The notes under the pieces are model-generated. The model worked only from the letters and a program-made list of their open reading frames with translations. It made no database searches and had not been told where the DNA came from. Source: a virus. From it: a DNA stretch of 64,000 bases. Shown here one piece after another: positions 2,712 through 24,148 of this stretch. Location: positions 62,001-126,000 of the IMG/VR virus record IMGVR_UViG_3300046318_000520. The stretch is one strand, 5' to 3'. Within the stretch, counting starts at the first letter, position 1; every line of letters starts with the position of its first letter. Made by a program: the position numbers and the translations under genes.

Positions 2712-3551
2712 TTACATGAATGTTACTCCGTATATTTCTTTTACATTACTGGGTTCTATGTTCACTTGTACAAGATCTTGTACAGTTTCTTGTACAGGTT
2801 CTAAGATCTGAACTGGTTTTTGAATACCTGTATTAAGCATGCCGTACTGATCTATAAAAAAGCTGTGTACTTTTTGATGATCTGACAGATAGCTCAACGG
2901 ATGGGATTCTTTTAAAGAAAGCGTGATGTGATTGTATAGGGCCCATGCTGAATCCGGATGGCAATTATAGTTGAAACTGGGCTTATCCATTTCACGCTTT
3001 ACTATACCAGTCTGGGTCAGGGTGAGAATTTCCTGCTCAGCAAAAAGCCGACCAAGGATAGTTCCTTTTTCCCTGGGTGTAAGTATCACATCTTTGAGTA
3101 TTTCTTTGTCCTGGATCAGCTCATCATAGTGCTGTCTTGCGTTAGCAATCTGGTTAATAATATTAGACTCTACATCATAGAGTGCAGAGCCGGAATGTTT
3201 GCGGGAATAGGTCATCATATCAGAAGATATAACCCCGTTCATACATACAAAGACGCTGGCTCCAACGGCACATTTAAACCTGAGTTGCTTGTTATAAGAG
3301 TTACACCAGGCAAACATCATTCCCATATCCTTATCGGTGGAATGTGAAAGCTTGATGGTTCCCTGGGCAACCTGCTGGTCCATGGTTGCCTTGTATGTGG
3401 TGCTTTGAATCTCCAATCCAGCCTGGTGAAGTTCCTGGCTGATTTTATCTATGACATAACCGTGTGGAATAACAGCATACTTGTTGCCATGCTGGGGCAG
3501 AGCTACGGAACGTAGGTCTTGTTCTGATACAATAAGCGTTTTTGCGGGCAT
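2712..3551 (-). CDS. DUF932-like phage protein
   Basis: A 279-residue protein that resembles the DUF932 family of phage and plasmid proteins. It has an N-terminal IPHGYVIDKISQ region, a central LRFKCAVGASVFVCMNG segment and a later HPDSAWALYNHITLSLKE stretch close to the conserved family pattern of a small-residue loop followed by an aromatic helix. The biochemical function of DUF932 proteins is not established, although they usually sit near replication genes, as here directly upstream of the polymerase. The C-terminus carries a Val/Gln/Pro-rich repeat (KPVQILEPVQETVQDLVQ) that is probably a flexible linker. Confidence 0.6.
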   Translation of the reverse strand: MPAKTLIVSEQDLRSVALPQHGNKYAVIPHGYVIDKISQELHQAGLEIQSTTYKATMDQQVAQGTIKLSHSTDKDMGMMFAWCNSYNKQLRFKCAVGASVFVCMNGVISSDMMTYSRKHSGSALYDVESNIINQIANARQHYDELIQDKEILKDVILTPREKGTILGRLFAEQEILTLTQTGIVKREMDKPSFNYNCHPDSAWALYNHITLSLKESHPLSYLSDHQKVHSFFIDQYGMLNTGIQKPVQILEPVQETVQDLVQVNIEPSNVKEIYGVTFM

Positions 3552-3560
3552 ATTATTCTG

Positions 3561-5501
3561 TTAAAAAAGTGAGAGTTGTTGAAATGCACTGGGTCTTGTG
3601 GTCTCTATCTGTTCTATTTGTTTATTTATTTCTTCCAAGTAGTAGTTTATATTGATCTTATAATCTGAAAATGGGACAGATGGATCCATCTTATTGACGA
3701 CAGTCTGCATCCATTCACCGGATTCTACTTGTATAGAGCGGCCATCCGGATTACACTTTACAAGCTTGACGCCATCGGAGGAAATAAAATACCTGACGAT
3801 CTTCTGTAACCGGTTAATTGTTAGTGTTCCCATGTTGATAAACCTTTCTTCAAAATACCAGACACTTTTGGATTTGACACCTGCACAATAGTCAAGAATA
3901 TCCTGGTTCTGCATTAGAAAAGTCCTGGGTTCTATGCCGTTAACAAAATATGCATAGATGGCTTTGGGAATAATCAGAAAGCTTTTGTTCTTGTGAAACA
4001 CACTCACTTTCTTTTTAGCAAGGTCTTCCCATTCAAAAGCACCTTTGCATTTTACTTTTCCCTTCTTATTAATAGCAATATAATTGTTAACGTCACGGAT
4101 AATCATCTTGGAATACTCATCATGTTCCAGGTCAAGCTTAGTCAACATAGACCAGCGTTGACAGATCTCCATATATTTTTCAATCTTATCCGTAGGCAGC
4201 ATGGTCTCCATACCGTCTGTGTTTTGCATGAGTGGTATGGCTTCCGGGATTTCTTCACAGATCATTTCATAAAGCATGCTTAACAACAACTGACCATTAA
4301 TAGTAATCTGCATGGTCATCTTTGGATCGTATAGAAAACTGTTTTCGTCACCAGTAAGACCGTATGTACTGTTAAGAATAATCTTAAAGACATAGTTCTT
4401 GGGATCTGTTTTAGGAATCTTTTTACGTTCATCAAAGAACCATTCATAGAGTTCAGTGAATTCATCCTGAGGAATATGTTCCGGATGAAACTTATTACGG
4501 ATAGCCAGGTTAGGATAAAAACTCACAACATCTGAAGTGATGATGGTCCAGCCAGGAGGTGCTTCATAAACACCTGTAGCACGAGCACCGTGAATACCAC
4601 CGAGCCCATAGTCTGTATTCATACCTTTATACTTGACCGTATACTTAAACCCGTCTTTAGTGGACGTGATTACCTTGGTTCTCAGATAGTCATGCATCTT
4701 TTGAAATTCAGGTGTGTTAAACTTGATATACGGAAGCATGCACTGGCCAAGATAGATCTCCGTGCGTGGTGTACGCAGCGTTTTGATTTCTGACTTATGC
4801 CATCCCAGTTTCTTGGAAAGAAAGTGCAGGAACAGTTCTTTAGATATCCTTGGTTCAGATGCACTGTACAGGTCTATGCCGTATTCCTTGGTTAGGTTCT
4901 GGCGCAGGACAATCTGTTCCTTGGAATGAACCAAGATCTGCTTAGTAGACAAGACGTCATTAATACAATATTTGATCACACTTTGCAACTGGTCATTATT
5001 TGTAACCGGTTGATTGTGATGATGAGGCATCTCCTCTACGTTCTCCCAGTCTATGGAATACTGTATCCATTTCAAAGAACTCATCTTGGCTTTGTTATCC
5101 CAGTGATTCATCTTAAAAAGATCTATCTGCCTGATCTTGATCTGGTCAGGACGGTACTGCTGGAATTCATTTCTGTTAGAGCGTTCAATGATTTCCTGGG
5201 CCTTGCTGTATATTTCTTTTACAAGGTCAGCTGTACTTAGCCTGAGCAGGTCACGCTGCTTAAAAAGCATCCATTGTGTAATCTGTGCATCAAAAGCCAG
5301 TCCGTTGTAGGAAATATGCCACTGATTAAGATTGACACAGTCGTTAAGAAACTGTACCATCTCAGGAAAATCATTCTGATCTTCATGAATGACAAACACT
5401 TTTTTGACAGACTCATCTTTATAGTGTTGAAACACTGCTACAAAGCAGTTCACTATTGTCTCATAATCCATTACCCAATGCGTAGGTGTTGCTGTTTTCA
5501 T
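3561..5501 (-). CDS. Family B DNA polymerase
   Basis: A compact 646-residue DNA polymerase with 3'-5' proofreading. Exo I is VMDYET (residues about 10-14), Exo II is SYNGLAFD and Exo III is YCINDV. In the polymerase domain, motif A is TSDVVSFYPNLA, motif B is KIILNSTYG and motif C reads QNTDGMET. Motif C has the form TDG in place of the classical DTD. The size and pattern match the short family-B enzymes of some Bacteroidota phages. No terminal-protein insertion can be asserted. An intergenic terminator from the upstream gene precedes it, so it probably also has its own promoter. Confidence 0.92.
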   Translation of the reverse strand: MKTATPTHWVMDYETIVNCFVAVFQHYKDESVKKVFVIHEDQNDFPEMVQFLNDCVNLNQWHISYNGLAFDAQITQWMLFKQRDLLRLSTADLVKEIYSKAQEIIERSNRNEFQQYRPDQIKIRQIDLFKMNHWDNKAKMSSLKWIQYSIDWENVEEMPHHHNQPVTNNDQLQSVIKYCINDVLSTKQILVHSKEQIVLRQNLTKEYGIDLYSASEPRISKELFLHFLSKKLGWHKSEIKTLRTPRTEIYLGQCMLPYIKFNTPEFQKMHDYLRTKVITSTKDGFKYTVKYKGMNTDYGLGGIHGARATGVYEAPPGWTIITSDVVSFYPNLAIRNKFHPEHIPQDEFTELYEWFFDERKKIPKTDPKNYVFKIILNSTYGLTGDENSFLYDPKMTMQITINGQLLLSMLYEMICEEIPEAIPLMQNTDGMETMLPTDKIEKYMEICQRWSMLTKLDLEHDEYSKMIIRDVNNYIAINKKGKVKCKGAFEWEDLAKKKVSVFHKNKSFLIIPKAIYAYFVNGIEPRTFLMQNQDILDYCAGVKSKSVWYFEERFINMGTLTINRLQKIVRYFISSDGVKLVKCNPDGRSIQVESGEWMQTVVNKMDPSVPFSDYKININYYLEEINKQIEQIETTRPSAFQQLSLF

Positions 5502-22277: not shown

Positions 22278-23381
22278 TTAGGCGTATTCAAAATGCTTGA
22301 TTTTTTCCTGGTCAAGATCTTTAAGAGCTTCTTTTACCCAGCGTTCATCTACCGTGTTCTTGTAACACAGGATGTGTACAATAGCAGTGTCATCAGGGTT
22401 AAGTCTAAGTAACCTGCCTATACGCTGATTAGACTTTCTCTCATTACCATATGCATGCATGATTATTCCGGCCCGAAGATTGGGAATATTAATACCCTCG
22501 TTGAGCTGCATTACACAGGAGAGCTGAGTTATTTCATCTCTTTTAAACTTGTCAAGATTAATTTCTGAATCAGCATTACCTGAGTGATAGGAATCTTTAC
22601 AGATACGGTCTGCCTGGTCCTGCGTATTACAAAAGGCAATACACTTGTCCTCTATTTCTGATAATAGATTCTTAGTATAGTGTTCTTTGGTTCTGAAGTC
22701 CATGATGACACGCATTCTCATGACAGATGATATCTGTTCTTCTTTTTTACTTTGTGCACGCATGATCCGGTCCGTCCAGTAGCCATAGCTTTTTTGCTCA
22801 GATGTATAAAACGTACCGTTTTTTGTTTTAACAGGGAAGTTATTCTCTGAAGACAAAGAAAGATAGTGCACTATGATACGGTAGTCATTAAGGATCTGGT
22901 CATCTACAGCATCGTCTGTTATATAGGTATATAGAACAGGACAATACCTGGAAACCATTTGACCTTTCTCACTTTGAGCATATCTGGGCGGAGTACCTGT
23001 GAGACCCAGTATTCTTTCCTTATATTGCACAAGAAAAAGATTATGGGAATATAACAAACTATGACACTCGTCCAGTATGACAATGTCATAGTTAACGGGA
23101 TCAAACTTATTCAAAGACAAATACGTAGTGAATTCTACGTTTTCTAAACTGATACCGAACTTTTCAGCATCTGATCTCCAGGAATCAAAGATGCTCAACT
23201 TAGGTGCTACGACTAATATCTTTAGCTTACCCATATTGAGATCCTGATAATGACTCATATACTTTAAACCAATAAGTGTTTTACCGACCCCCATGCTCAC
23301 AGCCAAACCTGCTCTTTTGTATTTAAAAGCTACTTCTAAAGCCTCAGCTTGTATACTGTCTCTTGTATTTTTTTGTTTCAC
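22278..23381 (-). CDS. SF2 DEAD/DEAH-type helicase (new N-terminus after GIY-YIG insertion)
   Basis: A 367-residue superfamily 2 helicase. Motif I is AVSMGVGKTLIG, motif II is VILDECHSL, motif III is GLTGTPP and motif VI is NQRIGRLLRLN. It begins with GTG at 23381 inside the end of the GIY-YIG gene. A second, diverged copy of its first codons lies upstream at 24065-24148 and breaks off exactly before the Walker A codons. The present N-terminus therefore appears to have been supplied with the insertion. It could serve replication-fork or recombination remodelling. Confidence 0.85.
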   Translation of the reverse strand: MKQKNTRDSIQAEALEVAFKYKRAGLAVSMGVGKTLIGLKYMSHYQDLNMGKLKILVVAPKLSIFDSWRSDAEKFGISLENVEFTTYLSLNKFDPVNYDIVILDECHSLLYSHNLFLVQYKERILGLTGTPPRYAQSEKGQMVSRYCPVLYTYITDDAVDDQILNDYRIIVHYLSLSSENNFPVKTKNGTFYTSEQKSYGYWTDRIMRAQSKKEEQISSVMRMRVIMDFRTKEHYTKNLLSEIEDKCIAFCNTQDQADRICKDSYHSGNADSEINLDKFKRDEITQLSCVMQLNEGINIPNLRAGIIMHAYGNERKSNQRIGRLLRLNPDDTAIVHILCYKNTVDERWVKEALKDLDQEKIKHFEYA

Positions 23382-24006
23382 ATAACTGTTTTTTAGTTAT
23401 ACATTCTTGTTCTGGTCTTAATAGAAAATGATTTTTGTATCTACTAACAACTCTTTTTCCTTTAAGATTTATAGTACCGTTTACTACTGCTTGAGAATGG
23501 TTAAGCCCTGGATAAAGCTTTTCTAGTTTTTTACCAGCAGCTCTTTCAGACTCATATGTTCCTATACAGTTACAATTAATATCATAAATAACTACAGGTT
23601 TTTTCTTATCGTCATGAGTAGGATATTTAAGAAGTCCTAACAACTTTTGTTGTTTAAGCGTAGCTGAGGATTTTCTTCTAGACTCTTCAGAAGGAGTATT
23701 CCTAATAACCTCTAGCGTAATGTTGTATACTGGTTTTAAATTATTAATATACTCCTGCTCTTTTTGAGTCAGAAGTTTTACAGGAACTTCTTCAAGAATT
23801 AAAACATCAAAATGGTCTTGACCATGCTTATTGTAGCTATTTTGGAGATACGGATTAGCATGAATACCACGTTGTAACTCTGATTGGTGGCGTTTTAATC
23901 TGTAATAAATATTCTTACTACTACCGATGTACTGCTTTTTGTTCTTGATATTAGTTATACAGTAAATACCACAGATTTTTAAGCCAAAAGATCTAGAAAT
24001 GTTCAT
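23344..24006 (-). CDS. GIY-YIG homing-type endonuclease
   Basis: A 220-residue protein with an N-terminal GIY-YIG nuclease domain: GIYCITNIKNKKQYIGSS, then NIYYRLKRHQSELQRG and YNKHGQDHFDVLILEE. The catalytic Tyr, Arg and Glu positions are present. The C-terminal half (RRKSSATLKQQKLLG and GTYESERAAGKKL) resembles the modular DNA-binding repeats of group I intron endonucleases. It sits between a relic of the helicase start and the complete helicase gene. The 3' end overlaps the helicase by 38 nt. A 17-nt promoter block lies just upstream. Confidence 0.88.
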   Translation of the reverse strand: MNISRSFGLKICGIYCITNIKNKKQYIGSSKNIYYRLKRHQSELQRGIHANPYLQNSYNKHGQDHFDVLILEEVPVKLLTQKEQEYINNLKPVYNITLEVIRNTPSEESRRKSSATLKQQKLLGLLKYPTHDDKKKPVVIYDINCNCIGTYESERAAGKKLEKLYPGLNHSQAVVNGTINLKGKRVVSRYKNHFLLRPEQECITKKQLCETKKYKRQYTS

Positions 24007-24021
24007 AGGATTTAGGTTTAG

Positions 24022-24038
24022 TCTACAATATAATATAC
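24022..24038 (-). promoter_or_regulatory. 17-nt promoter block GTATATTATATTGTAGA (minus strand)
   Basis: Identical to the block at 14575 and 43000. It lies 16 nt upstream of the GIY-YIG start, inside the region brought by the insertion, so the endonuclease probably has its own promoter. Confidence 0.6.
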
Positions 24039-24148
24039 TTAAAATGTAGAACTTTTACAAATAAACCCATGGAAATTCCCAAACCGCAACGTTTATTATT
24101 AAACGCTACGGTGAGAGCTTCCTGTTGGATCTCGTCTCTTTTAGACAT
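24023..24148 (-). pseudogene. Relic of the original SF2 helicase 5' end
   Basis: A 41-codon ORF starting at the ATG that overlaps the stop of the 24141-24419 gene. Its first 28 residues (MSKRDEIQQEALTVAFNN, then GLGISMG) align with the helicase N-terminus (RDSIQAEALEVAFKYK, then GLAVSMG). Homology ends exactly at SMG, where the helicase continues VGKT. After that the frame runs into unrelated sequence and a TAG. It therefore looks like the displaced first exon left by the GIY-YIG insertion. Confidence 0.75.

Follow-up and report, generated by a model that had tools for sequence, protein, structure and literature searches.

An intron-less GIY-YIG homing element that very probably replaces the 5' end of a phage helicase gene at the Walker A codons

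The window, i.e. the whole stretch of 64,000 nucleotides of viral DNA analysed here, very probably harbours a homing element which lacks an intron and supplies a new start to the gene it invades, that of a phage helicase. Such a homing event at the helicase Walker A site, with replacement of the 5' end, had been proposed in an earlier note made from the letters of the window, and the proposal gains support from the comparison of empty and occupied alleles as well as from the respective affinities of the stranded and the replacement gene ends. The window sits in a 127.7-kb virus record, and matches to phage or ATPase families were obtained for its capsid, terminase, portal, DnaB-like, DNA polymerase and MoxR-type ATPase genes. 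Distantly related capsid proteins occur in crAss-like gut phages, Cellulophaga phages and a Leptolyngbya phage, helicase relatives are found in Flavobacterium and Bacteroides phages, and the virus is probably a relative of the Crassvirales.

Organisation of the locus in the window

On the minus strand, the locus reads as a stub of the helicase 5' end, then TTTATTTGTAAAAG..., then a GIY-YIG homing endonuclease gene (HEG) and finally the helicase gene (Table 1). The stub encodes the 28 residues MSKRDEIQQEALTVAFNNKRCGLGISMG, its frame continuing as LFVKVLHFKYIIL before a stop, and breaks off at ATGGG, just short of the Walker A codons VGKT, which are missing from it. The earlier note had described such an N-terminal copy ending at SMG upstream of the GIY-YIG gene, together with a helicase starting inside the end of that gene and complete in motif I; both are present as described, since the GTG start (23381) sits within the final 38 nt of the GIY-YIG ORF and the helicase keeps Walker A (SMGVGKT) and motif VI (QRIGRLLR) intact. 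The divergence of the two N-terminal copies is likewise borne out, with 60% nucleotide identity over 81 nt, their resemblance at the protein level within the locus reaching an E-value of about 3e-7.

Table 1. Features of the helicase locus, in coordinates of the window
Feature	Position	Strand	Remarks
Stub: native helicase 5' end, 28 codons, severed after ATGGG	24066..24148	-	81% nucleotide identity to the L078 N-terminus (sister empty allele)
Whole mobile unit, 776 bp, counted from the base after the first ATGGG through the end of the second ATGGG	23290..24065	-	Left end TTTATTTGTAAAA..., then HEG, then replacement helicase 5' end including the second ATGGG
Promoter-like block TTTG-N20-TATATTAT, left end of the unit	24030..24062	-	Constant spacing in 11/11 HEG-bearing loci
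GIY-YIG homing endonuclease gene, 220 aa, weak NUMOD1 match	23344..24006	-	PF01541, I-TevI structures, PHROG homing endonuclease
Replacement helicase 5' end, GTG start, VKQKNTRDSIQAEALEVAFKYKRAGLAVSMG	23290..23381	-	First 38 nt overlap the HEG
Restored SF2 (XPB/ResIII-like) helicase, 367 aa, full-length, Walker A at the insertion point	22278..23381	-	Pfam, PHROG, structures

Regarding the endonuclease, its product matches Pfam PF01541 at an E-value of 1.6e-12 (48 bits vs. a cut-off of 22.6) and aligns to the I-TevI catalytic domain (1mk0/1ln0) at 8e-18, the residues I14-Y15, Y26-I27-G28, R36, E83 and N95 being invariant (alignment A2); the protein has a GIY-YIG catalytic domain with its conserved catalytic residues. 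The helicase matches ResIII (2e-11) and Helicase_C (3e-9) in Pfam, besides the phrog_16 DNA helicase and XPBII structures. Because a contig from a different sample (L001) is 100% identical to the window across 5.9 kb and the same gene architecture is seen in several independent contigs, the locus is not an assembly artefact.

The earlier note had also suggested that the unit carries its own promoter block, a suggestion strengthened by a TTTG-N20-TAnnTT motif found just inside the left junction in all of the HEG-bearing loci examined. For the main Bacteroides sigma factor, the pattern reported is TTTG near -33 and TAnnTTTG at -7 (PMC7366714), to which three loci (L051, L156, L157) fit exactly and the block of the window fits only loosely. 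The strict Bacteroidota promoter consensus gave 0 matches in the window vs. 1.5 expected, and it is therefore the conservation across loci that carries the promoter reading. The block would drive both the HEG and the helicase.

Empty and occupied alleles among relatives

Relatives were collected by helicase, GIY-YIG and left-end pattern searches; the left-end pattern gave 56 matches in viral contigs, most of them by chance, and a scan of genome contigs found no relatives. The helicase tree comprises 66 rows, namely 55 uninterrupted helicases, nine with the unit and two with footprints. Relatives with an intact helicase, for which the earlier note had called, are thus plentiful, 55 distinct loci having a single uninterrupted gene and no stub (empty alleles). 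The unit is carried, with the helicase in view, by nine distinct loci (the window, L003, L013, L015, L016, L026, L051, L156 and L157), to which are added two HEG-bearing loci truncated by contig ends, L046 and L159, the HEG of the latter being close to that of L026. As for the co-occurrence that was also to be checked, the GIY-YIG gene, the stub and the replacement N-terminus occur together, the exceptions being two footprints of HEG loss (L005, L080), which keep the replacement.

Every unit starts directly after the small-Met-Gly (or equivalent) codons preceding (V/T)GKT, its first bases being TTNTTTGTAAAA or a near variant, and the stubs of the divergent members L156 (Walker A SVGTGKT) and L157 (ATGVGKT) end at the same point. 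The length found in the window recurs in L003, and the remaining close members range from 773 to 943 bp. The right end is of two types, either a 220-aa HEG overlapping the helicase start (the window, L003, L013, L015, L026) or a 257-268-aa HEG with an additional C-terminal segment (L016, L051, L156, L157); in L156, two additional genes lie between HEG and helicase. The insertion site, after ATGGG and before the Walker A VGKT codons, is fixed, with empty alleles in relatives.

Near-sister pairs show which N-terminus is native. The helicase bodies of L003 (occupied) and L094 (empty) are 93% identical, and the N-terminus of the latter shares 90% nucleotide identity with the L003 stub vs. 52% with the L003 replacement, identity returning at ATGGGGGTCGGTAAAACC, i.e. 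the Walker A codons. Similarly, the N-terminus of the empty allele L078 is 60% identical to the window replacement, far below its match to the stub (Table 1), and the upstream gene is conserved between L078 and the window as far as the start codon of the stub. From these sister comparisons, both ends of the unit are fixed, the stub being the native start and the functional start foreign; the architecture, the exact left boundary and the right boundary at the Walker A codons are all apparent in the aligned sequences.

More broadly, the nearest neighbour is an empty allele for 6/6 alignable stubs and another replacement copy for eight of the nine replacement N-termini, the exception being the L051 replacement, which is nearest to an empty allele; at 81 nt, these N-termini offer too little sequence for a firm tree. 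A T-R pair near the start occurs in 9/9 replacement copies, 4/55 empty alleles and 0/5 stubs (replacement vs. empty, Fisher p 2.6e-8, relatedness not corrected for). Stub and replacement thus have the opposite affinities that were expected, and the unit carries a divergent copy of the host gene end by which the reading frame is restored.

On the helicase tree, the occupied alleles do not group together but are scattered, requiring at least eight changes, four of them forced by well-supported (starred) branches. The HEG is often far more alike between phages than the helicase or the neighbouring gene, as in L013/L026 (HEG 93%, helicase 67%, neighbour gene 79%), L013/L016 (HEG 87%, helicase 59%) and L013/L015 (HEG 80%, helicase 58%, neighbour gene 46%), from which it follows that the HEG spreads horizontally, independently of its host gene. 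HEG identity exceeds helicase identity in 23 of 36 pairs, the exceptions notably including those that involve L157 and some that involve L156 or L051; this reverse pattern in the most distant pairs is as expected if recent transfer took place within only part of the family. Like the empty and occupied alleles themselves, repeated acquisition in different phages is apparent in the sequences. An ordinary free-standing HEG adjoining its target, brought upstream of the helicase with a foreign 5' end by illegitimate recombination and not repeatedly homing, has a parallel in the T4 seg genes, which adjoin their cleavage targets and carry co-converted flanks along when they spread (PMC2988022), but the identical precise junction recurs in scattered helicase lineages and HEG and helicase identities are strongly discordant in some of them, which makes this account very improbable.

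After-life of the unit and proposed homing cycle

The stub is disrupted in L016; in L015 it closes with a stop at the junction, and in L013, L026, L046 and L159 it is cut down to about 17 nt. Relatives in which both copies are functional separate genes, a situation that would speak against the replacement proposed in the earlier note, were looked for and none was seen, the stubs being frameshifted, stopped or trimmed in other phages. The possibility that the stub encodes a functional peptide was rejected on the same observation, and the native end is left behind as a non-functional fragment. Besides, of the two footprints, L005 retains the stub and the left end with the HEG gone, and L080 just the final ~35 nt of the HEG plus the replacement 5' end. 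Decayed stubs and footprints of this kind are what a homing gene would be expected to leave behind.

The exact coincidence of the stub end with the beginning of the helicase body could also suggest an RNA-level element, e.g. a group I or group II intron, the stub being an exon 1 spliced, or bypassed by the ribosome, to VGKT, and related GIY-YIG enzymes indeed adjoin a group I intron in L005 and probably reside in an intron at the Walker A codons of a DnaB-type gene in L160. Such an exon 1 would nevertheless be redundant because the helicase body already has its own N-terminus and start, and it is broken or trimmed in L013, L015, L016 and L026. An Rfam intron search of the locus at gathering and relaxed thresholds found nothing, neither a group I catalytic RNA core nor any match between 22800 and 24600 even at E<=1; the same program finds group I introns in L005 and L026 but misses the probable L160 one at the gathering threshold, so that the absence of a match is not proof. 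Taken together, an RNA-level explanation is most improbable, slightly more so than a free-standing HEG. Equally hard to credit is a tandem duplication of the helicase, with the upstream copy mostly deleted and the GIY-YIG gene landing later between copies, as the two adjacent N-termini might suggest, given that phages with dissimilar stubs share both the position of the break, to the base, and the TTTATTTGTAAAA-like sequence that goes with it, that the copies within one phage are less similar than stub and empty sister allele, and that two full copies in one phage were not seen among the loci examined.

In the homing cycle favoured here, the GIY-YIG enzyme would cleave phage helicase genes that are still uninterrupted, at the Walker A codons (SMG|VGKT) or close to them, and repair would copy in the promoter-like block, the HEG and the donor helicase 5' end up to and including ATGGG. 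Fused in frame to the recipient's VGKT..., this incoming end would give a helicase that is full-length but chimeric, and the original 5' end of the recipient would be left upstream as a stub that later decays. The replacement 5' end probably also renders the occupied allele resistant; like cleavage and its exact position, this resistance is inferred from the sequences compared. Gly occupies the second position ahead of SMG (GLGISMG) in 36/55 empty alleles, compared with 0/9 replacements, some stubs also being without it (empty vs. replacement, p 2.5e-4, relatedness not corrected for). Such absence of Gly in replacements would fit a lost recognition sequence and is only suggestive of recoding for resistance. 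The immediate core of the replacement copies (AGCATGGGGGTTGG) is also found in empty alleles, e.g. L105, and resistance must therefore lie further upstream, or be absent. A recoding of serine from TCN to AGC was rejected as a general resistance change, many empty alleles having AGC/AGT and the L051 and L005 replacements TCC.

Related elements, known systems and significance

A mirror image of the unit, i.e. an apparent 3'-end replacement, was found in a phage exonuclease gene (L170:3277-4720), where a related GIY-YIG gene follows an exonuclease gene with a divergent C-terminus and a native-type C-terminus (CLKIKDSYEGMEFINPIKSTLVYAK...) is stranded downstream of the HEG; uninterrupted exonuclease relatives (L235-L246) have the native end in place. 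In L204:3011-4540, about 50 nt of a gene 3' end are present as near-identical duplicates on either side of a GIY-YIG domain that is joined in frame with the upstream gene; this may be a 3'-end replacement of very recent date.

Several other elements were observed in relatives. The L016 helicase is also broken at motif VI (QR|IGRLLRLNP; 3100-4420), in an intron-like manner and with another GIY-YIG gene, and looks like it carries two kinds of homing element. In L005:9470-10523, a group I intron (Rfam RF00028, 10211-10478) in the neighbouring MoxR-type ATPase gene is associated with a GIY-YIG gene 49% identical to that of the window, and an Rfam group I intron lies downstream of the helicase in L026:4848-5095. 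The GIY-YIG gene of L160:1-1200 lies in the probable group I intron mentioned above, at Walker A codons (GARPG) of the DnaB-type helicase gene; P-loop codons seem to be a favoured target of the GIY-YIG family to which the window enzyme belongs. Of note, an intergenic stretch directly upstream of the helicase (L080:3600-3790, L159:3740-3930, also L026, L113, L117 and L134) is conserved and probably structured; it ends in a terminator-like hairpin (TTAGCTGTACCAGAACAGCTAATTTTTT), has no Rfam match and is a candidate non-coding RNA.

Among known systems, the WHO elements of Torulaspora/Lachancea yeasts, which target FBA1 and replace its 3' end (Coughlan et al., 2020, PMC7282813), share with the phage unit an intron-less homing gene that swaps one end of the target gene for a donor end, the decay of the old end and the absence of splicing. 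They differ in being yeast nuclear elements with an intein/zinc-finger type (HO-like) endonuclease, as opposed to a phage GIY-YIG enzyme acting on the 5' end at a helicase Walker A, and in that cleavage has been demonstrated for WHO and is predicted for the phage unit. The mobile ORFs of fungal mitochondria (Allomyces atp6; Glomus atp6/atp9/cox2/nad3, the atp9 element being of GIY-YIG type) likewise combine an HEG with a gene end of foreign origin that is in frame with the host gene and leave the native end stranded and diverged, but they replace the C-terminus (PMC3630166). Given its replaced 5' end, the phage unit would work alike without being a member of either family. T4-type HEGs (segs, Aeh1 mobE, T4 mobA) also lie beside phage genes or split them (PMC2988022), within or next to replication genes, and the segs are also GIY-YIG enzymes; there, the gene is intact or split into reassembling pieces, whereas the window gene is rebuilt full-length via a replaced end. 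With I-TevI and intron-encoded GIY-YIG enzymes, the unit shares the catalytic domain, and related enzymes occur in group I introns of relatives, but an intron was not found at the window locus. No phage or 5'-end precedent for gene-end replacement was found in the open-access literature.

On balance, we lean towards end replacement being a general means of survival for phage HEGs that has largely gone unnoticed, with a resistant 5' (helicase) or 3' (exonuclease, L170) end; with the same measured preference, GIY-YIG enzymes would colonise conserved replication genes without introns or inteins, repeatedly making gene ends chimeric. The first codons of phage genes may consequently differ in ancestry from the remainder of the gene, and short ORFs upstream of HEGs may be stranded gene starts, both of which call for caution. 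With empty, occupied, stub-decayed and HEG-lost alleles all available from nature, the homing cycle can be put to a direct test. The end-replacing strategy, reported from fungal mitochondria and yeast, would now extend to phages and to the 5' end, and would constitute a third route, after self-splicing introns and inteins, by which selfish DNA can occupy a phage gene at its most conserved site and not destroy it.
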